Positions 1 through 23,896 of a stretch of 33,735 bases of DNA are shown here, one piece after another (position 1 is the first letter of the stretch; every line of letters starts with the position of its first letter). Source of the stretch: Spirochaetaceae bacterium. GTDB taxonomy: Bacteria; Spirochaetota; Spirochaetia; Treponematales; Breznakiellaceae. Under the pieces are notes generated by a model, which saw only the letters and a list, made by a program, of their open reading frames with translations, did no database searches and was not told the origin of the DNA. The position numbers were made by a program, and so were the translations under genes. Where the stretch lies: the NCBI GenBank assembly GCA_031257255.1, contig JAIROZ010000191.1:1-33735 (forward strand). The letters run 5' to 3'.

Positions 1-37
1 TAGAGTTCTTTATTCTCTTTCATATATTTATCAAACT

Positions 38-110
38 TAACGGTTCTAACTCCGCTAATCAGCATATATCGGATAAAAAACTACCCACTACGCACTACTC
101 ACTACCCACT
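38..110. repeat. Degenerate copy of dispersed hairpin/heptamer repeat
   Basis: Positions 38-72 resemble the core of the repeat at 8671-8806 (shared TAACG, TCCG, TA and ATATCG blocks in the same order). They are followed at 84-110 by about four copies of the heptamer CNCACTA (CCCACTA, CGCACTA, CTCACTA, CCCACT), which is the reverse complement of the TAGTGNG heptamers in the left arm of that repeat. The second arm is not clearly present here. Related words (CAGTGG, CCACTGT) recur at 150-186. Assignment to the same family is inferred from visual alignment. Confidence 0.5.
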
Positions 111-166
111 CAAAAAAAACACCGCTCAGACAAGCGTTCATATATATTGAACAGTACAGTGGCTAC

Positions 167-1233: not shown

Positions 1234-4200
1234 CTACATCATAGCCTCGATACGGCGGCGAAGGTCGTTGATTTTTACGGAATTCTGGTTTGCGGGATTT
1301 TGCAGCAAGCGTTGTACTATAGAAAGCGCGATGATGGTATTGCCGCGCTGAAGTTCGCTTACGGCGCGTATGTAGTTCTGCTCGGTTGAGCGGTCGATAA
1401 CCGTTACATTTTGACGCGCAGTTGCCAGTTGTAAACGGTCTTTTAACGCCATTGCGTCCGTACTGTTCGGGTTTATGCGCAATGCTTCGTTTATAAGCGC
1501 CAAGGCATCCTCGTATCTTGGCGGAGTACCCATAAGCCCTTTTGCGCGGCGGACAAGCGCATCGGCGCGGGTAACAGCCGAATTATCCTGAGGCGGAACG
1601 CGGAGCCCTATGTCAATTTCCGCCTGATAAAGAGCGCGTTGTATGCCCGGATAATCCGGTTTTATTTCGGCAAGATTTTGCATATCGGCGTACGCTTCCC
1701 GCGAGCCGCGTTTTGCCTCCGCAATAGCCGTTTGCAGACGGAGGCTAAAGGCTCTTTCAAAATTTTCTTTTTCCAAAATCTGGTCTATGCGAAGGTCGAG
1801 AATACCGGCATCGCGGTTTATAGGAAAGAGTACACGAATCTCATTTATCTGCCCCTTTGCCGCGTGGAGTTTTTGCTCGCCCTCCCCGCGCTTTCCAGCG
1901 CCTATCAGCGCAATGCCGTCATCATAATTCTTTTGCGCGGAATTCAGCAGTTGACTCATTGTCTTGTAAAGCGGAGAAGTCTGAGGTACAGTCCGCCCCG
2001 ATTGCAGCGAAAGCGCCCCCCGCGCAAGAGAAAGCCAGTACGCTACCTCCGGTTCGGGCGTCGTACTAACGACAGCCCAGCGGTTTGAAGCCCGCATAAG
2101 TACTTCCTCGGCATTCTCGTACTCCCCGTCAAAGTAGAGGGCGCGTCCCTTAGTTACCATAGCGCGTACTTCGCCTATGACCATTTCGTACTCTATGCGG
2201 GCAATTTCCGCGTTAAGCGGCACAAGTTGCTCGTCCCAAATCTTATGTATGGCATCAGACTCCTGAATTTCCAGCGATGAGTTGTAAAGTTCCGCCGTTT
2301 TCCCCGTCTCTTCCCGCGCCTTGTCAAAATTCCGCGCTTTTAGCGCTTCTCTGGCAAGTACAAGACGGCTGTCGCCTTCACGCTTTAGCGCTTCCGCCTC
2401 CGTTACACGCGCCTTTGCTTCGGCGCTTTTTATGCCGGAGTCCTCGCTTAACGCCCTAAGCCTGTTTATCAAAGAGTCTAATTCCTTTTGAAGAGCGGTA
2501 AAATTCTTTCCACGCGGTATGCGTTCCGGCTCATTATTCAACGCGGCGCCGGCGTTTTCCGCTTCTTCCAGCGCTGTTTTTAGTTTGCCGGAAAACCCAC
2601 TAAACAAAGCAAGCGCCTGCGCCGGATAGCGGGCGGTATATACATCGCCCGATTCGTTTTTTTTCTTCTCGCCTGCCAAAAAAGCATCCGCCCGCGCCTT
2701 ATCTTTTTCCAGCGCGGCGGTTTCTACACCTAACTTTTGCGCTACCAGGGTAAAGTAACGGATTACGCTTGTCTCTTCATCCTTTAGTATTTGACCGGAG
2801 AGTCCCTGCATAATTGACCGCGCATTTACAAGCGCCGTTTTGCCATTGGTTATGTCAACGCCCGCGCCTATATTGCCGATGGCGGTAATGTCGGCTTGTA
2901 CCCCTTTAAGCCCGTCATCTAAAATACCTGCCATTTCTGTAAGTTCGGCGCGGTTTTGTGTTTCAATTTTTAGCGCGTCCGCTATGGGAAGGCGTCCTTC
3001 TTTTACTTCGATAACGGAGTCGGAAAAAGTCTGACGGGATGTAAATGCGCTGTACGATGCCCCCGCCTGCGCCGCGCCGTTTTCGTAGTTGACCGCCTTT
3101 GCCAGAGCGCGGCTGTTTGCGTATATTTCCGCCTTTGCGGCGGGAACCGCCGAATCAAAAATGCTAATATGGGCGCTATCATCCCCGGCGGTAAAAGAAA
3201 TGTACTTTTGAGCCAGCGCCTCAAACCCGGCGGCAATTTCCGCGCCGCTTTGCGCCGTCTGCAGCGCGGCGTTCCAGTTACCCGCCGAAAGTTCCTGCCA
3301 GATGTTATCCTGAGTATCCAGCAGCGCGGCGATATATTTTTCTTCCAGAATTGGATAGACAAGATTCCAGTAGGCATCGTACGCGCCAAGCATACCTTCG
3401 CGGACACTCTGAAATTCGCGCCCGGTTATCAGATATGAGATAACAAAAAGCCGGCTTACCGCATTCCTGCCGATTCCGGCTTCTGTAAGCGCCTCGCCTT
3501 CAGTTTCAAAGTAATTCTTTATTACCTCCGCCTGATTTTTTATGGTAATGAGGGCGTTCATGGCATCCGCAGCCAGACGGGAAGCGGCGAGGAGCCCGTT
3601 TTTTGAGGCAATGCCGTCTTCCAGCCGCGATGCCTGAGAGGCTGAATTCCGCAGCGCGGCTGCTGTACGGGCAAGAGTTTCCGTGCCGGATGTAAGCGTT
3701 TGCAGATTTTGCCGGACTGTATTTTCGATTTCGTCTCCGACCTTAGCCTCACGGAATTCTTCGGCATATAGGCTAAAACCGCTCTGATATTTGAGCAGGG
3801 CGGCGTTAATTTCACCCTTATCGAGAAGCATCCGCGCCTCTATCATTATGCGGTTAAGGTCGCGTCCGTAGCGGGAAAACCGCGCCGAAATAAAAATCTG
3901 GTTTACGACATTCCGCGTATTATCGCTGCGGGCTGCCGCTTCTATTTCCCGCAATTTTTTGCTTATAGCAAGGATTTTGTCCAGGTCTTCCGGGTTTTGT
4001 TCGGCGGTATCCATAAGGACTTTGGCAAGCGTATCGTAAGATTGAGTGAGCATTAAGATTGAACGCATACGTTTTTGTGCGCTGTCAAAATGGTCTTTTT
4101 TTTCCGAGGCTGTTTTAACAAGTAATTTTAGCGCTTCCTTGTAATTTTTTTCGGCTATCAGTATGTCGGCGGCGGCAAGGTCTGTTTTTGTTTCTTGTTT

Positions 4201-4317
4201 TTCTTTACTCCCCATGGAGGCGGCAGGAAAAGCGCAGAATACAAATAGAAGTACAGCAATAAGACGCGCAAACACCATATCACTAAGATACCATTGAAAT
4301 GATTTAATGTAAAACAC
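1234..4317 (-). CDS. Large exported helical protein with C-terminal TPR repeats
   Basis: The 1,027-residue product has an N-terminal hydrophobic segment (MVFARLIAVLLFVFCAFPA, about residues 14-32) typical of a signal peptide. Almost all the rest is Ala/Glu/Lys/Leu-rich helix. A TPR-like unit near residues 40-70 (AADILIAEKNYKEALKLL) and more after about 880 (RYEDALALINEALRINPNSTDAMALKDRL) indicate a TPR/solenoid scaffold in the periplasm. The frame opens with GTG at 4317, overlapping the upstream cyclase gene by 14 nt; ATG at 4278 directly before the hydrophobic segment is an alternative, and neither has a strong RBS. It is the last gene of a barrel-cyclase-TPR operon, so a structural or sensory partnership with the cyclase-like protein is plausible. 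No enzymatic motif seen. A Treponema-specific family is likely, but I cannot name it. Confidence 0.8.
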   Translation of the reverse strand: MFYIKSFQWYLSDMVFARLIAVLLFVFCAFPAASMGSKEKQETKTDLAAADILIAEKNYKEALKLLVKTASEKKDHFDSAQKRMRSILMLTQSYDTLAKVLMDTAEQNPEDLDKILAISKKLREIEAAARSDNTRNVVNQIFISARFSRYGRDLNRIMIEARMLLDKGEINAALLKYQSGFSLYAEEFREAKVGDEIENTVRQNLQTLTSGTETLARTAAALRNSASQASRLEDGIASKNGLLAASRLAADAMNALITIKNQAEVIKNYFETEGEALTEAGIGRNAVSRLFVISYLITGREFQSVREGMLGAYDAYWNLVYPILEEKYIAALLDTQDNIWQELSAGNWNAALQTAQSGAEIAAGFEALAQKYISFTAGDDSAHISIFDSAVPAAKAEIYANSRALAKAVNYENGAAQAGASYSAFTSRQTFSDSVIEVKEGRLPIADALKIETQNRAELTEMAGILDDGLKGVQADITAIGNIGAGVDITNGKTALVNARSIMQGLSGQILKDEETSVIRYFTLVAQKLGVETAALEKDKARADAFLAGEKKKNESGDVYTARYPAQALALFSGFSGKLKTALEEAENAGAALNNEPERIPRGKNFTALQKELDSLINRLRALSEDSGIKSAEAKARVTEAEALKREGDSRLVLAREALKARNFDKAREETGKTAELYNSSLEIQESDAIHKIWDEQLVPLNAEIARIEYEMVIGEVRAMVTKGRALYFDGEYENAEEVLMRASNRWAVVSTTPEPEVAYWLSLARGALSLQSGRTVPQTSPLYKTMSQLLNSAQKNYDDGIALIGAGKRGEGEQKLHAAKGQINEIRVLFPINRDAGILDLRIDQILEKENFERAFSLRLQTAIAEAKRGSREAYADMQNLAEIKPDYPGIQRALYQAEIDIGLRVPPQDNSAVTRADALVRRAKGLMGTPPRYEDALALINEALRINPNSTDAMALKDRLQLATARQNVTVIDRSTEQNYIRAVSELQRGNTIIALSIVQRLLQNPANQNSVKINDLRRRIEAMM

Positions 4318-7580: not shown

Positions 7581-8657
7581 TTATGGGCGCACCGAGCCGA
7601 TATAGGCATTTAGCGCGGCGGTGTCCATACCAAAGGCGGTGTCTATCTTTATTTGACCGCCTTTTATCTGCTCTGTTAGTCCGCCGATTTTTTCACGGAT
7701 GGCGGCGGGGACTTCAGCCTGATAAATAGAATTGTCGGCAAGCCCTATACAGTCCTCATTTATGCCGAGGACTTCCCGTGTGCCCCAGGGAAGCGTTCCT
7801 TCTTTGGCACGGCTGACGGCAAGGAGTATCGACTGGTCAACGCGCTTTAGCACGGACGAAATGATACGCTGCGCCATTGCCGGGTCGCTTGACTGGAAGA
7901 ACATACCTTGGTCGTTGTCCACGCCTATCGCATAGCGCCCTCTGTCTTTGGCGGCTTCTATCGCGCCGTTGCCTGCCCGCGCCGCAACCGAGAATATTAC
8001 ATCCGCGCCTATGTTGTACTGAGCAAACGCGAGTTCCTTAGCCTTGGCGGTGTCCTCAAAGTTACCTACATAGGAGGGAATGACCTTAACATCCGGCTTT
8101 TCGGCTTTTGCCCCCTGAATGTAGCCTACAAGGAAGTCGTTGATTACGGGAATGTTCGTGCCGCCGACAAAGCCGACTATGCCGGACTTGCTCATCGCGG
8201 CGGCAAGGACGCCGGCAAGATAGGAGCCTTCGTTCTGCTTGTACTCCATCGAGTAGACATTTTTGTTGGCGCCGTCTGCGTAGTTTACGCTTGTATCGTA
8301 CATGATGATTTTCTGATTAGGATAATCTTTAGCGATACGCTCAACGATGTCCGTCATCTGCCATGTGCCGCAGACCACAATGCCATAGCCCTCATCGCAG
8401 AGGTCGCGCAATGCGGGCTCCCATTTGGATTCGTCATAACCCATTTCAACGGCGCGGGTTTTTAGCCCCAGTTCATTTTTGACTAACGCCATTCCATTGT
8501 TAGCCGAATCCTGAAAAGACTTGTCTCCCAGACTCCCGTTAATAAGGAGCGCGACAGTCAAATCCCCGCCTCCAGCAGCTTTTGCCTGCTCTTTTTTCTG
8601 GCAGGCGCTAAATGCGGCAGTTATCAAAACCGCCGATAAAATAAATTTTCTTAACAT
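7581..8657 (-). CDS. tmpC: BMP-family nucleoside-binding lipoprotein (TmpC/PnrA-like)
   Basis: A 358-residue lipoprotein with lipobox LITAAFSAC (lipidated Cys19), then the BMP/PnrA periplasmic binding fold. Family hallmarks include GSLGDKSFQDSANNG near residue 40, GIVVCGTWQMTD, the MEYKQNEGSYLAGVLAA hinge block, GFVGGTNIPVINDF, GADVIFSVAARAGNGAIEAA and AIGVDNDQ. In Treponema pallidum PnrA (TmpC, TP0319) these segments line the purine-nucleoside pocket; the Phe after GDKS and the Phe of DVIFS match the base-stacking residues by position. The lipoprotein should feed an ABC importer, but no permease or ATPase gene adjoins it: the gene stands alone between a hairpin repeat and a terminator. AGGAGA at 8669-8664 precedes the ATG by 6 nt. 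Nucleoside specificity is inferred. Confidence 0.92.
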   Translation of the reverse strand: MLRKFILSAVLITAAFSACQKKEQAKAAGGGDLTVALLINGSLGDKSFQDSANNGMALVKNELGLKTRAVEMGYDESKWEPALRDLCDEGYGIVVCGTWQMTDIVERIAKDYPNQKIIMYDTSVNYADGANKNVYSMEYKQNEGSYLAGVLAAAMSKSGIVGFVGGTNIPVINDFLVGYIQGAKAEKPDVKVIPSYVGNFEDTAKAKELAFAQYNIGADVIFSVAARAGNGAIEAAKDRGRYAIGVDNDQGMFFQSSDPAMAQRIISSVLKRVDQSILLAVSRAKEGTLPWGTREVLGINEDCIGLADNSIYQAEVPAAIREKIGGLTEQIKGGQIKIDTAFGMDTAALNAYIGSVRP

Positions 8658-8670
8658 AATTTATCTCCTA

Positions 8671-8806
8671 GTTAGTGGGTAGTGGTCAGTGGTCAGTGGT
8701 CAGCAGGTTCAGGTCGATATATGTTCTCTAACGAAGAACTGTCCGTTAGTTCCGCCATATCGCGTTGAACCGGTGCTGTTCACTGTTCACTGTTCACTGT
8801 CCACTA
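8671..8806. repeat. Hairpin-forming intergenic repeat with heptamer arms
   Basis: The whole interval folds on itself. The left arm (8671-8711) consists of TAGTGGG/TAGTGGT/CAGTGGT heptamers ending GGTTCA. The right arm (8766-8806) starts TGAACC and contains CACTGTT, CACTGTT and CACTGTC, ending CCACTA. Inside lie the nested pairs CGATAT/ATATCG and CTAACG/CGTTAG. The left end touches the RBS (8664-8669) of the BMP gene, and the right end coincides with the TAG stop (8804-8806) of the OmpA-like gene. A second member lies at 22815-22964 and a degenerate one at 38-110. No transposase is encoded. Confidence 0.8.
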
Positions 8807-10741
8807 TTTTTCCAATACAAATTCTACACGGCGGTTTTTCCAGCGGTTGGCGCTGTCTCTGCGGTCAACGACCGGTCTTGTGCCGCCTATGCCCGCCGCG
8901 TTAAGGCGGTTCTTTACCTCATGGTCTACAAGATACTGCCGCACAACATCGGCACGGCTCTGCGACAGCGGTCCCAGATTGTCCTGTTTTTCCTCACGCT
9001 CGGTTCCCGTTACATTGTTCGCGTGTCCCTCCACAGTAACGCGGTATTCGGGATAACGCTGAAGCGCTTCCGCCACGCGGTCAAGTATGCGAATGTTTTT
9101 TTCGATACCAGCCTGATTAAGCCCCGGTCCGGGTTTGTCGTAGACCGCCTTGTTTTCCACAAAGGTAATCGCCGGTACACGGATGATGAGCCGGTTGCCG
9201 TCTCTGCGGACGAGGATATCTACGGTAATAATCCCTTTAACTTCGGCGGTCTGTTCCTGAGTGTCCTGCACGGTAAAAATGTACGGGTAGTCCATCGCGG
9301 ACTCGACCTCTTCTTTGCCGTCTGAGGATTTGCCGTTCCATGTAAGGGCGGAAGGAATGTCCGACTTGCCGTTAGCCGTCCAGAAGGTTTTGCCGGTGGG
9401 GTCAAGGATGACAAAATTCCACGAAGCAAGTGGGATTTGCCGCTGTACATCCAGTTTAATGTTGAGTATGTCGTTGCTTCCGTCCCCGTCCGGGCTAAAA
9501 CGCTCCGGGCTTGTGGTAACGGCGGCAATAGGCGGAGCGCCGCAGGCAAACGGCTGAGTTTCCGCCCGAACAGTGGAGCCGCTTGAGTAGGTAATTTCCA
9601 GTTTGCCTACAAAACTACCCATCGCTATGCCGCCGGTGCTAAGTTTGCCGTTCCAATCAAAGGTGAGTTGCCCGCTTGAAGGGAATTTTTCGCTGCCGCG
9701 AGGGCGGGAAAATACAGCCTCCGAGGTTACATTCCCAGCGCCGCCGCTAACCGCCGTGCCGCCTGTGGAAACCGGCACTACCTTAAAATTCCACGAGTCT
9801 ATCTTTCCGGCATCGCTTGCCTTGAGAGTAAAGGTCTGCGATTTGGTTTTACCTTGCGGCGCTACTTCGGCAAAGGCGCGTCCCGCTTCGGCTTCCTTAG
9901 GCGTGGGGTCGTAGCGTATGTTTGTAACGCCTGCCGGCGGAGATTTGTTGCCTGCCAAGTCAACGGCGCTTATCGAGTAGGTGTAAATGCCGTCCGGGAG
10001 CGATACACCCGCGTTGTCCGTGCCGTTCCAGACTACAGCCGGCGGCGAGGCATCGCGCCAGTCAAACGACCATACCGTTTTGCCCGCTTCGTTTACGATT
10101 TCGCCATGCCACAAGTCTTCGCGGCTGCCGGACTGCCCTATAGCGAGAGACGGCTTGGCGGACTGCCCGAAGTTTTTTTCCGCGTCCGTAGGCTGTTTGA
10201 GCGTAATGGACGGCGGCGTTGTATCGACTATAACCGTATAGCGCGGAGATTCGCCGTAGTTGCCGTTATCATCCTCAGCGGAAAAATAAAAGGTATAAGT
10301 CCCGTCCGGAACCTGCGCCCCGGCAGCCGTCTTTCCATTCCAGACGACATTTTTAGGGATGGGAACGCTTTTTTTCGGCTTGATAAAAGCGGCAAGTATC
10401 GCCTTTACATTTTTGGGGTCGATTGCAGGCTCGTCAATTTTTGCGTCCTGAGTATACACCTCGCGCCCGGCGCTGTCGGCAACAACAAATTTCCACGAAT
10501 AGATAAACCGGCTGTCCGTTATCGAAAACGGAATAGAGAGTTCATCCTTTACGCCATCGCCGTTAGGCGATATATAGTAGCGTTCCTGCGCGGCTGCCTT
10601 AGTTGCCCCCAGCGAAATGAACACCGTTACAAGGACAAGCGGCGCAAGCGTTGCAAGCGTTGCAAGCGGCGCAGGCATTGCATAGGGCGTACAACCCGGC
10701 GTATTGCCTTTCGGCGTGTTACGCAAATTCTGATTTTTCAT
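8804..10741 (-). CDS. OmpA-family protein with FlgD-type Ig-like repeats
   Basis: The 645-residue exported protein starts with a long signal sequence; its hydrophobic part includes LATLATLAP, encoded by GCAAGCGTT-type 9-bp repeats at about 10638-10675. The body carries SPNGDGVKDE (about residue 58) and FSPDGDGSNDIL (about 420), plus four FlgD-like Ig modules recognised by WNG...DG(T/I)Y (VVWNGKTAAG, VVWNGTDNAG, FDWNGKLSTG, LTWNGKSSDG) separated by DTTPP-type linkers. The C-terminal ~110 residues are an OmpA peptidoglycan-binding domain (VTVEGHANN...LSQSRADVVRQYL...GGTRPV...NRWKNRRVEFVLEK), with the Asn/Arg residues that bind diaminopimelate or ornithine. It probably ties an outer-membrane complex to peptidoglycan. 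RBS AAGGAG overlaps the upstream gene's stop (gap 9 nt), so coupled translation with the barrel gene at 10751 is likely. Confidence 0.88.
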   Translation of the reverse strand: MKNQNLRNTPKGNTPGCTPYAMPAPLATLATLAPLVLVTVFISLGATKAAAQERYYISPNGDGVKDELSIPFSITDSRFIYSWKFVVADSAGREVYTQDAKIDEPAIDPKNVKAILAAFIKPKKSVPIPKNVVWNGKTAAGAQVPDGTYTFYFSAEDDNGNYGESPRYTVIVDTTPPSITLKQPTDAEKNFGQSAKPSLAIGQSGSREDLWHGEIVNEAGKTVWSFDWRDASPPAVVWNGTDNAGVSLPDGIYTYSISAVDLAGNKSPPAGVTNIRYDPTPKEAEAGRAFAEVAPQGKTKSQTFTLKASDAGKIDSWNFKVVPVSTGGTAVSGGAGNVTSEAVFSRPRGSEKFPSSGQLTFDWNGKLSTGGIAMGSFVGKLEITYSSGSTVRAETQPFACGAPPIAAVTTSPERFSPDGDGSNDILNIKLDVQRQIPLASWNFVILDPTGKTFWTANGKSDIPSALTWNGKSSDGKEEVESAMDYPYIFTVQDTQEQTAEVKGIITVDILVRRDGNRLIIRVPAITFVENKAVYDKPGPGLNQAGIEKNIRILDRVAEALQRYPEYRVTVEGHANNVTGTEREEKQDNLGPLSQSRADVVRQYLVDHEVKNRLNAAGIGGTRPVVDRRDSANRWKNRRVEFVLEK

Positions 10742-21122: not shown

Positions 21123-22526
21123 TCACAGCCCCTTCTCCACCCGTTCCAGTTCGCAGGAACGGCTGCCTTTTAATAAAATCAAAGCGCCGGTTCGCAGGAC
21201 GGCGCGTACATTTTTAATAAGCGCGTCTATATCATTTGTTTGATACATATACATTTTTGCGGCACATTCCGCCATGTGCGCGGCGGTAACTTCTGTTTCT
21301 TCTCCAAATAGAAACACCGCGTCCGCGCCGGATGCCGAAAGGCGCTCTCCCAGTCTGCGGTGTTCGCTTTCTGTTTCGGCTCCCAATTCGCGCATAGCGC
21401 CTATAATGTATATTTTTTGAGGATACTTGCCGCCGTCTGCCGCCTGTAATTCATCGCACATAAGAAGCGCCTTTTCCATAGAGGCTGGATTTGCGTTGTA
21501 ACAGTCGCGCACAAGCATATAACGCAAGCCCGCCTTTGTCTGCGCTTCCAGCGCCTGCGCCCGCCCAAAGAGCGGTTTTACCGCCTCCAAGCCCGCCGCT
21601 ACAGCGCCGCCGCTTATGCCGCTCCAGCGGGCTAAGGCAATGGCGGCAATGGCATTTTCGGCATTGTGCTTTCCCGGCAGCGGAAAACGCGCCTTGCGCC
21701 CGTCCCAGTGAATAACGCTCCCTTCGAGTCCAAGACTTTCTACCTTTCCTGTAAATGTTTCTAATGTATTGTAAAAAATTACATTGCCTTGTACTTCATT
21801 TTTGAATATATCGGGGAATGGTACATTGTCCGGCACAAAAAGCGTTTCGTTTCCTGTAAATTTTATGGATATATCTTTTTTTTCGCGTGCTATATTTTCT
21901 AGGCTGCCGATAATGCCTATGTGGGCGCTTCCTATATTTGTAATAAGCGCGGCATCCGGTTTTAGCACGGCGGCAATTTCCGCCATCTCGCCGCGCCGGT
22001 TCATTCCCATTTCAAAGATGCCGGTCTCGTGTTCTTTGCGTATATTGAATACGGACAGCGGCAGCCCGGAATCGGAGTTCAAATTGCCTTCGTTGTAAAC
22101 TATATTTTTTTCCCGCGCAAAAATTGACGCGCATATTTCTTTTACCGTTGTTTTGCCGGATGAGCCTGTAATGCCAATTTTGAATAATGTATCAAATTTT
22201 GATACATACAGCGCCGCGATTTTTTGCAGGGCGGCAAGTGTATCATCAGCATATATAATACTGATTTTTGCATTTATATTTTTTAGTACATCGCTTTTAT
22301 TTTTTTCTATAACAACGCCCGCCGCTCCGGCTTTTACCGCGTCCGGTACAAAGTTATGCCCGTCTGCCCGCTCTCCTTTAAGGGCAAAAAACAAACTGCC
22401 TGCCTGTGCCTTACGCGAGTCTATGCAAACATTTGTAAAAAAATCCGGCGCGTTATCTCCGCAAGGCAGCGCCGTAAAACCCGCGCCGCGCAATTCCTCG
22501 AATTTTAGCAGGGCATTAGTTTCCAT
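21123..22526 (-). CDS. murF: UDP-MurNAc-tripeptide D-Ala-D-Ala ligase MurF
   Basis: Adds D-Ala-D-Ala to UDP-MurNAc-tripeptide, the last cytoplasmic precursor step. From ATG 22526 (METNALLKFEELRGAGF) the product is 467 residues, a normal MurF length; a longer open frame to 22601 would overlap ftsL. Seen: substrate-recognition segment VCIDSRKAQAGSLFFALKGERADGHNFV, ATP loop GITGSSGKTTVKEI, NLNSDSGLPLSVF, FEMGMNRRGEM, ITNIGSAHIG (Mg-binding region), GKHNAENAIAAIALA and RDCYNANPASMEKAL. Its start overlaps the ftsL stop (ATGGAAACTAA, 11 nt) and it abuts mraY. MurE, MurD and MurC are not encoded nearby. Confidence 0.96.
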   Translation of the reverse strand: METNALLKFEELRGAGFTALPCGDNAPDFFTNVCIDSRKAQAGSLFFALKGERADGHNFVPDAVKAGAAGVVIEKNKSDVLKNINAKISIIYADDTLAALQKIAALYVSKFDTLFKIGITGSSGKTTVKEICASIFAREKNIVYNEGNLNSDSGLPLSVFNIRKEHETGIFEMGMNRRGEMAEIAAVLKPDAALITNIGSAHIGIIGSLENIAREKKDISIKFTGNETLFVPDNVPFPDIFKNEVQGNVIFYNTLETFTGKVESLGLEGSVIHWDGRKARFPLPGKHNAENAIAAIALARWSGISGGAVAAGLEAVKPLFGRAQALEAQTKAGLRYMLVRDCYNANPASMEKALLMCDELQAADGGKYPQKIYIIGAMRELGAETESEHRRLGERLSASGADAVFLFGEETEVTAAHMAECAAKMYMYQTNDIDALIKNVRAVLRTGALILLKGSRSCELERVEKGL

Positions 22527-22803
22527 TACGCCGTCCGTAAATATGGATTTGCAGTACTTCTTCCGGTTCTTTTTTATCGAGCATAAGCGTATCGCGGGCA
22601 AATTCCTCGATACGCACGGGAGAGGTAAGCCCGGAGATGTCGGTTAGCAGTTGCTTGTTTGTATCGACAAGCGCCTGCTGTTCCGCTTCCAGTTTTGCCA
22701 TCTCTTTTTTGAGCGCGTCAAACCTGTCCGCCTGCGCCGCCGCCGCCCCTAACGCAAGCGGTATGCTCAAAACAAGCGCATATAAAACAAAAATCTTCTT
22801 CAT
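22516..22803 (-). CDS. ftsL: FtsL/septum-initiator-like small membrane protein
   Basis: A 95-residue bitopic protein: N-terminal hydrophobic helix (residues 4-23, IFVLYALVLSIPLALGAAAA), a heptad-rich coiled coil (about 28-58, DALKKEMAKLEAEQQALVDTNKQLL) and the conserved FtsL/DivIC tail VRIEEFARDTLMLDKKEPEEVLQI. It belongs to the FtsQLB complex that activates FtsWI. Size, topology and position between rsmH and murF identify it even though FtsL sequences diverge. RBS AAGGA (22813-22809) lies against the end of the hairpin repeat at 22815. Its stop is overlapped by the murF start codon. Confidence 0.88.
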   Translation of the reverse strand: MKKIFVLYALVLSIPLALGAAAAQADRFDALKKEMAKLEAEQQALVDTNKQLLTDISGLTSPVRIEEFARDTLMLDKKEPEEVLQIHIYGRRNGN

Positions 22804-22814
22804 ATATATCCTTA

Positions 22815-22964
22815 TTAGTGGACAGCGGTTAGTGGACAGTGGACAGTTTCAGTTCTGGAAGAAAACCAAATACTAACGCATATAACTTTGTTAGTACTGA
22901 TATGCCAAACTGAACTACTGTCCACTGTTCACTGTTCACTGTTCACTGTTCACTGTTCACTGTC
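22815..22964. repeat. Second hairpin/heptamer repeat, between rsmH and ftsL
   Basis: The left arm (TTAGTGGACAG, AGTGGACAGTGGACAG, TTTCAGTT) pairs with the right arm (AACTGAAC, ACTGTCCACTG). The core contains TACTAAC (22871-22877) opposite GTTAGTA, matching the CTAACG/CGTTAG core of the copy at 8671. The right arm has five perfect CACTGTT copies (22923-22957) and a sixth CACTGTC, against two plus one in the other copy, so copy number varies. The left end touches the ftsL RBS; the right end runs into rsmH and provides its last codons and TGA stop. Confidence 0.8.
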
Positions 22965-23896
22965 TTCTCCACTACCCGCAACTTGGCGCTGCGGGAAGGC
23001 GGATTTGAACGCAATTCTATGCCGTCTGCCGTTACCGGCTTTTTGGTAACAAGACGGCACTCCCCGCTCTTATTTATCGGCATATTTCTATGCTCTTTTT
23101 CGCGGAAGAAGTTCTTAACGATACGGTCTTCCAACGAATGAAAACTGATAACACCCATGCGCCCGCCTGCTTTGAGCGCCCCGAAAGCCGCCTCAAGCCG
23201 CCGTTCAAGGCGTTCCAGTTCGCCGTTTACGGCTATGCGGAGCGCCTGAAAAGTCTTCGTTGCCGGATGCATGCCTCGCGCCGGGACGCCGCCCGGCATG
23301 GCGGAGGCAACAATGGCGGCAAGGGCGGCTGAAGTTTCTATCCTTGAGCGCGCCCTTGCCTTCACTATTGCCGAGGCAATGCGGCGGCTATGCCTCTCTT
23401 CGGCGTTATGCCAGAGCAAATCCGCCAACTCATCCTCGCGGAGAACGGCAAGCAAATCCGCAGCGCTCCGCCCATATCCGGTATCTATCCTCATATCCAA
23501 AGGCTCATCCTTACGGAAACTGAACCCCCTGCCCCCTTGCTCATAATGAAAAAGGGACACCCCCAAATCAATGAGGATAATATCCGCCTTTCGGCAGGCG
23601 CATTCGCCGGAAAAAAAATCTTCCGACCAGCACCGGCAAAATTGAACACGGCTTCCAAAACGCGAAAGCCGCGCCTTCGCCCGTTCCAGAACCGCGCCGT
23701 CCGCGTCAACGGCTGTAAGATGGAGCGCCGGAAAGCGCGACAGAAATGCCTCGCTGTGCCCACCCTCCCCTACCGTGCCGTCAATCATCCATGCGTCCGC
23801 GTCCGCAGACGCGCCGTCCGTTCCCGCCGTTTCCAGAACCGCTCCCAACAGTTCCAGAGTTTCGGCAAGCAGTACCGGCGTATGGATGATAGTCAT
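22943..23896 (-). CDS. rsmH: 16S rRNA m4C1402 methyltransferase RsmH (MraW)
   Basis: A 317-residue SAM-dependent enzyme methylating N4 of C1402 in 16S rRNA. Seen: HTPVLLAETLELL, SAM loop MIDGTVGEGGHSEAFL, LTAVDADGAVLERAKARL, the IILIDLGVSLFHYEQGGRGFSF motif (usually DLGVSS.Q.D...RGFSF; here slightly diverged), PLDMRID, HPATKTFQALRIAVNGEL, and GVISFHSLEDRIVKNFF. The last residues (KTVNSEQ) and the stop codon are encoded by CACTGTT repeats of the adjoining intergenic element, so the native C-terminus seems to have been replaced by repeat-derived sequence. It follows mraZ by 2 nt. Confidence 0.97.
   Translation of the reverse strand: MTIIHTPVLLAETLELLGAVLETAGTDGASADADAWMIDGTVGEGGHSEAFLSRFPALHLTAVDADGAVLERAKARLSRFGSRVQFCRCWSEDFFSGECACRKADIILIDLGVSLFHYEQGGRGFSFRKDEPLDMRIDTGYGRSAADLLAVLREDELADLLWHNAEERHSRRIASAIVKARARSRIETSAALAAIVASAMPGGVPARGMHPATKTFQALRIAVNGELERLERRLEAAFGALKAGGRMGVISFHSLEDRIVKNFFREKEHRNMPINKSGECRLVTKKPVTADGIELRSNPPSRSAKLRVVEKTVNSEQ

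Follow-up and report, generated by a model that had tools for sequence, protein, structure and literature searches.

The window, by which we mean the whole 33,735-nt stretch of DNA that was analyzed, is contig C209 of a 2.17-Mb, 210-contig metagenome-assembled genome (MAG; G000) that is 70.7% complete. The closest matches to its RsmH in a search with that protein were Treponema and Spirochaetaceae MAGs. Several of these closest relatives presumably belong to a termite-gut MAG series, as we read their isolate codes, and we take the source MAG to be a member of the family Breznakiellaceae. All genomes that were compared closely are MAGs, and genes were called with a simple codon-model open reading frame (ORF) caller.

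The window contains three copies of one repeat (Table 1). The two full copies had been described as hairpins of one design, and this was borne out by their heptamer arms, their CTAAC...GTTAG core, their folding scores, and their covariance model matches. The arms of both hairpins form inverted repeats of 31 to 33 nt that are 76 to 81% complementary, and the folding z scores were -8.6/-9.3 for the first copy and -7.1/-5.7 for the second, with 0 of 200 shuffles folding as well. A third stretch, at 38-110, had been taken for a degenerate copy. It is part of a true copy that is cut by the contig end rather than a decayed remnant, and it carries a core variant that is shared with contig C200 of the same genome.

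Table 1. Repeat copies in the window, their parts, and the adjoining genes
Feature	Position	Strand	Remarks
Copy cut by the contig end: partial core and right arm	1..112	+	Covariance model R1, 1.8e-9; 5' side missing
Bmp/PnrA-type lipoprotein ORF	7581..8657	-	Neighbor of the 8672-8807 copy
Full copy, intergenic form	8672..8807	-	Covariance model R1, 2.8e-25; folding z -9.3 on the - strand
Heptamer arm, TAGTGGG/TAGTGGT/CAGTGGT units	8673..8705	+	Inverted repeat I1, 33 nt, 76% complementary
Dyad core with CTAACG...CGTTAG hairpin	8706..8773	.
Heptamer arm, CACTGTT units	8774..8806	+	Terminal 8804-8806 is TAG on the - strand and ends the OmpA-like ORF
OmpA/CHU_C-type ORF	8804..10741	-	Neighbor of the 8672-8807 copy
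ftsL	22516..22803	-	Pfam DivIC; neighbor of the 22815-22964 copy
Full copy, right arm extended	22815..22964	+	Covariance model R1, 2.3e-30 for 22815-22949
Dyad core of second copy	22848..22916	+	Of the window cores, nearest to the coding-copy type
Right arm, 6 CACT heptamers in register	22917..22964	+	Holds the rsmH stop TGA (22943-22945) and encodes the rsmH C-terminal residues
rsmH	22943..23896	-	Pfam MraW; neighbor of the 22815-22964 copy

The preliminary description placed both full copies exactly between the stop codon of one gene and the ribosome-binding site of the next. The spacing is correct, but both the OmpA-like ORF and RsmH have their stop codons within the arms. Because the units repeat every 7 nt, a TAGTG/CAGTGA tract puts a stop into each of the three frames over a span of 21 nt, and any ORF that enters such an arm therefore ends in it; the apparent exact fit arises because the arms supply the stops. 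Among the non-coding copies with a neighboring stop codon, the stop was no more than 10 nt from the edge in 22 of 42, and many non-coding copies sit between a stop codon and a start 6 to 54 nt further on. Tracts of ACAGTGG are open in all frames (TVDSGQW).

Two further features of the window were observed. Segments of the region 111-360, namely GGTTTTTTGCCTTCGYTTGAAGGC and the leader of an unknown ORF at 295-1077, recur beside other copies of the element (loci L210, L201, L044, L197, and L041); they form a second repeated family, perhaps the leader of a multicopy surface protein gene. A 1,027-codon ORF on the minus strand (1234-4317) had no Pfam match above the cutoff.

Architecture and distribution of the repeat

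Before any model was built, arms were paired by heptamer register alone, which gave 30 elements with a sharp mode at 134 nt. In the unit, about four RRYAGTG heptamers make up the left arm and about four CACTRYY heptamers the right arm, with a dyad core of 70 to 80 nt between them. Copies oriented by their cores can be aligned, as follows: TCCGTTCAGGAAGnAAAnCAAGTACTAACGCAGATAACTTCGTTAGTACTGATATATCGGACAAAAATCTG. The left and right halves of the core each occur in more than one type and are variously combined among copies, which suggests from the sequences that copies have exchanged parts. The heptamer pattern CACTGTTCACTGTTCACTG, with two mismatches allowed, matched the genome 69 times (35 + 34), versus 0 for the reversed control, and a degenerate version matched 411 times, again versus 0. 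The similarity is thus far above that of random low-complexity heptamers.

The arms vary in length in 7-nt steps, and free heptamer tracts reach 14 units; the suggestion that the arms change by replication slippage is plausible in view of these steps. The same core bears at least four kinds of heptamer (ACAGTGG, GTAGTGG, ACAGGGG, and CCGGTTG), often unlike on the two sides, and the arms therefore turn over faster than the cores. RNAalifold predicted the arm helix only, with a covariation term of +0.29; given this near absence of covariation support, selection on RNA structure was rejected.

Compound elements were also seen. In the right flanks of loci L062, L199, and L060, the tail (half core plus arm, ACCGATATATCRGACAAAAATCTG) is duplicated. 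The same compound tail is present in three copies, the one on contig C188 and both of those on contig C185, which indicates that the element was copied after it had been modified. A palindrome of 17 to 19 nt (CGCCAACGAAGTTGGCG) lies inside heptamer arms and elsewhere (L046 near 630-650; L214, L212, and L217 of genome G001). It appears to be another small mobile palindrome nested in the heptamer-arm element.

A covariance model gave 113 hits over both strands of G000, corresponding to at least 62 places, a lower bound with 150 of 794 candidates scored; the family is thus far from confined to the window. Copies lie close to contig ends more often than expected (within 500 nt for 12 of the 62; P = 0.015), and the copy number in this MAG is probably underestimated for this reason. 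With the same model, at least 22 places were found in a MAG of the same genus (G001), and none were found in another that is 94% complete (G002). Within the bacterial family, matches to the repeat came from 33 of the 200 genomes, which represent 18 of the 57 genera. The matches from other genera that were inspected mostly have heptamer arms and a hairpin in common, with different cores; the copy in genome G015 has a similar core and AGGGG-type arms. Hairpins with heptamer arms and other cores were also observed elsewhere in the order, in several more genomes (L093, L094, L098, L099, L100, and L280 to L295), with the units ACGGTGG, GAACGGT, and TAGTGGT.

Carriage by plasmids was rejected, since a 201-nt query had no match in a plasmid collection. 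Carriage by viruses was likewise rejected: the two exact core-pattern matches in IMG/VR have no heptamer arms around them and look like chance. As a separate observation, 18 of the viral contigs in IMG/VR (L314 to L331) contain (CACTGTY)n tracts. Several lie near a start codon, and some form inverted pairs (L318, L327, and L329).

In-frame copies and empty sites in relatives

The family had been called intergenic, and this description does not hold, since 26 of the 62 copies in G000 lie within coding frames. Of these, 23 are within called ORFs and 3 are in further open frames: a 1,084-codon frame with AcrB-family domains, a frame encoding a ClpB C-terminal domain, and a 147-codon frame at a contig start. 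The frame of the core was set independently, by alignment to a reference copy. In all 24 copies tested (23 from G000 and 1 from G001), the strand and frame of the ORF equaled those of the core, with no stop. Other frames are open too in several coding copies. The single in-frame YAG slot was CAG in 22 coding copies and TAG in 0, compared with TAG in 20 of 68 other slots (P = 0.002), a count that is partly circular because TAG in that slot would end the ORF.

The insert comprises about 45 residues and belongs to one peptide family, with the consensus xVDSGQWTVDSVRSGSKxSTNADNxVSTDIxDKNLPTTHYPLPT. The hosts identified with Pfam and NCBIfam are MutS, GltX, Mfd (two inserts), MetH (two inserts), MutL, MurE, aconitase, CbiM, an M16C peptidase, a SWIM/SNF2 helicase, an ABC-F-like ATPase (two sites on contig C185), a family 2 glycosyltransferase, two FtsX-type permeases, a nucleotidyltransferase, Clp ATPase (two; ClpB), and a MiaB-like radical-SAM protein. 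In MutS, MetH, MutL, ClpB, aconitase, MurE, GltX, and others, the insert is flanked on either side by homologous domains, as judged with Pfam. No intein or intron domain was found in the ~45-residue inserts with Pfam, and no NCBIfam model matched three of the insert peptides up to E = 1. A profile of the coding peptide was matched in 5 of 150 genomes of the family, and wide use of this peptide was rejected on that count.

Filled sites were compared with the corresponding positions in related genomes. The GltX insert follows ALFNYLLARS and precedes the strand ILRLEDTD. About 30 other genomes in the order have the regions that match GltX residues 58-92 and 140-605 only 6 to 13 nt apart, and hence no insert. 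The net gain was 45 residues versus four of five aligned relatives and 40 versus G002, and in the glutamyl-tRNA synthetase structure 4gri, which we take to be the Borrelia enzyme, the loop has 4 residues versus 49 here. In MutS, the net gain versus three relatives was 37 to 43 residues, directly before the Walker A strand. The other inserts are in or near interdomain linkers and align less exactly, with net differences of 2 to 50 residues; several linker inserts align poorly with relatives. Empty sites were also found between genes. The window has a gap of 139 nt between rsmH and ftsL; of 16 relatives that were examined, 12 have the two genes overlapping or abutting, and 4 have short, element-free spacers between them.

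Diversity in the coding copies was 0.19, 0.18, and 0.32 at codon positions 1, 2, and 3 (P = 0.014), compared with 0.45, 0.45, and 0.43 for non-coding copies of the same length; diversity thus peaks at third codon positions in the coding copies alone, which we read as constraint at the protein level, although with 13 coding and 6 non-coding sequences this comparison has modest power. From the sequences, we infer that the inserts are translated and retained as part of the host protein. The folding z scores of coding copies ranged from -8.6 (Mfd) and -3.5 (MutS) to -0.4 (MurE) and +0.9 (GltX), and those of three intergenic copies were between -5.6 and -7.9. Such a range would be expected of a palindrome that is important for spreading but no longer so once it has been inserted.

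Mode of spread and competing explanations

We consider it very probable that the repeat, about 134 nt long, is a non-autonomous, selfish palindromic element and that it has spread across the genome of its Treponema-like spirochete host. Hairpin mobility, which had been suggested from the window, is supported by same-register copies at scattered sites and by the empty sites in relatives. In the mechanism that we propose, a trans-acting enzyme would act on the folded or cruciform palindrome and copy it into new sites. Copies would survive where harm is small, either in spacers, where TAGTG/CAGTGA arms supply stops, or in genes, where surface loops and interdomain linkers may tolerate insertion. 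The one stop-free frame of the element would then give a polar peptide rich in Ser, Thr, Asp, Asn, and Pro, translated within the host protein. After insertion, selection at the protein level would act on coding copies and the hairpin would decay. The arms may lengthen, shorten, and swap units by slippage and by recombination between copies or with free heptamer tracts.

Alternatively, the repeat could be a classical MITE, what is left of an insertion sequence after it shrank; the DDE transposase that moves it would then be encoded in the 30% of the genome that is missing here, or belong to families outside our search. The terminal inverted arms, small size, and high copy number would fit. However, no target site duplication was detected among 43 clean flanks (observed, 49; permuted mean, 51.7; P = 0.65), so classical DDE transposition is not supported; the arms are exchangeable tandem heptamers rather than fixed terminal repeats, and we noticed no full-length, transposase-bearing relative at the loci fetched. 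We regard this origin as unlikely, though worth keeping in mind. Two other routes were rejected by searches of the 70.7%-complete G000: no Y1 transposase (PF01797) was found, which speaks against a REP/RAYT system, and no reverse transcriptase (RVT_1) was found, which speaks against a retro-mechanism (retron, group II intron, or diversity-generating retroelement). It is also conceivable, though we think it quite improbable, that an enzyme of a new type attaches 7-nt units to the ends of the palindromic core or replaces those already there, in which case the arms would be made and not merely inherited. Similar heptamers do recur in other spirochetes and in unrelated viral contigs. If true, templated heptamer addition would be a new kind of repeat-synthesizing mobile system.

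Other explanations dispense with mobility or with a translated insert. Regulatory mRNA hairpins kept for their function, such as terminators or REP-like stabilizers and processing sites, would account for the strong predicted hairpins and for the many non-coding copies lodged between a stop codon and a nearby start. Yet 26 of the 62 copies are in coding frames, the arm helix has almost no covariation support, no U-tract was seen after the hairpins in the sequences, and relatives keep the same operon junction without any hairpin, all of which makes a regulatory role improbable. That a structured element interrupts conserved genes might instead mean that the inserts are removed or skipped, by intein-like splicing, by RNA splicing, or by bypassing as with the yeast mitochondrial byp elements. 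A single frame nonetheless stays open in every coding copy, which would be needless for bypassing; diversity tracks codon positions; the inserts have no intein or intron domain in Pfam; and some of the coding copies have a decayed hairpin. Removal or skipping is thus very hard to reconcile with the data. Finally, low-complexity heptamer tracts grown by slippage, with a common design by chance, would explain the 7-nt steps in arm length and the long free tracts, but not the nonrepetitive core common to copies genome-wide, the empty sites in relatives, or the lack of matches to the control pattern, and we give this idea practically no credence.

Comparison with known repeats

The preliminary description was right in declining to assign the repeat to the REP or ERIC families. 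Like REP/BIME, ERIC, and MITE sequences, it is a many-copy palindromic repeat with intergenic members, but REPs are 20 to 40 bp and are moved by a Y1 RAYT, whereas this repeat is 134 nt and its genome, as far as assembled, gave no match to PF01797. The inverted heptamer arms resemble the terminal inverted repeats of MITEs, which differ in having target site duplications. MITEs are occasionally inserted in frame (PMC10969869), consistent with the spirochete repeat in this respect. The TAACTGA heptamer repeats of Beggiatoaceae, Cyanobacteria, and Bacteroidetes are also tandem heptamers and are mostly intergenic; in the Beggiatoaceae genome there are two to six units per set, and an inverted arrangement occurs in 1 set in 170 (PMC4679880). 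The units here are different (the four kinds given above), with no shared core, and inverted pairs around a core are the rule rather than the exception.

Palindromic DNA that encodes peptide segments is known from other lineages. The PARCELs of Mollicutes encode tandem 25-residue (75-nt) repeats in arrays, and the same paper cites palindromic coding repeats of Wolbachia and Methanocaldococcus jannaschii (PMC2996958). The spirochete repeat shares palindromic, peptide-encoding DNA with the PARCELs and the M. jannaschii repeats; it differs from PARCELs in occurring as single inserts in housekeeping enzymes. Nematomorph mitochondria have inverted repeats within coding sequences, as here, but those are perfect, apparently actively maintained, and not one mobile family with a common core (PMC6649704). 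Palindromic elements of the Rickettsia and Wolbachia kind lose their palindromy with time (PMC6649704), which is matched by the decayed folding of some of our coding copies.

Among known elements, the protein-coding palindromic elements of Rickettsia come nearest to the repeat, nearer than any intergenic REP or MITE. Rickettsia palindromic elements and the protein-coding palindromic repeats of Wolbachia are 100 to 150 bp, occur in high copy number, and are found both between genes and in frame within unrelated housekeeping genes, whose reading frame they leave intact (PMC3767692, PMC10969869). The spirochete repeat resembles the Rickettsia elements in its length of 134 to 136 nt, its 62 places, and the strong dyad of its intergenic copies; in lying in frame, in a single frame, in unrelated genes (26 coding copies; 24 of 24 tested); and in the insert-free orthologs in relatives (GltX in about 30, MutS in three). 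It differs in its host, which is a spirochete rather than a member of the Rickettsiales, as judged by the best RsmH relatives (Treponema and Spirochaetaceae MAGs). It also differs in its arms, which are tandem 7-nt units of several exchangeable kinds, and in its large non-coding subset. No sequence relation to the families RPE1 to RPE8 was found in the NCBIfam search with three inserts; we believe that NCBIfam includes models of the Rickettsia elements.

Earlier descriptions of in-frame, protein-invading palindromes come mainly from Rickettsia and Wolbachia and in one case from an archaeon, and we know of no established mechanism for them. A literature search, mostly of papers available without subscription and including a 2026 study of Breznakiellaceae, found no report of such elements in spirochetes. 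On our best reading, the repeat would behave as an element of the Rickettsia palindromic type that is independent in sequence, belongs to another phylum, and has unusual, exchangeable heptamer arms. A second, unrelated outbreak, with dozens of copies in widely conserved enzymes of a spirochete, would make this route to new protein segments a general one. Because related genomes have many, few, or no copies (33 of 200 matched), comparing their gene content offers a way to look for the mover. The exchangeable arms, in turn, link the class of in-frame palindromes with the still unexplained heptamer repeats known from Cyanobacteria and Beggiatoaceae.
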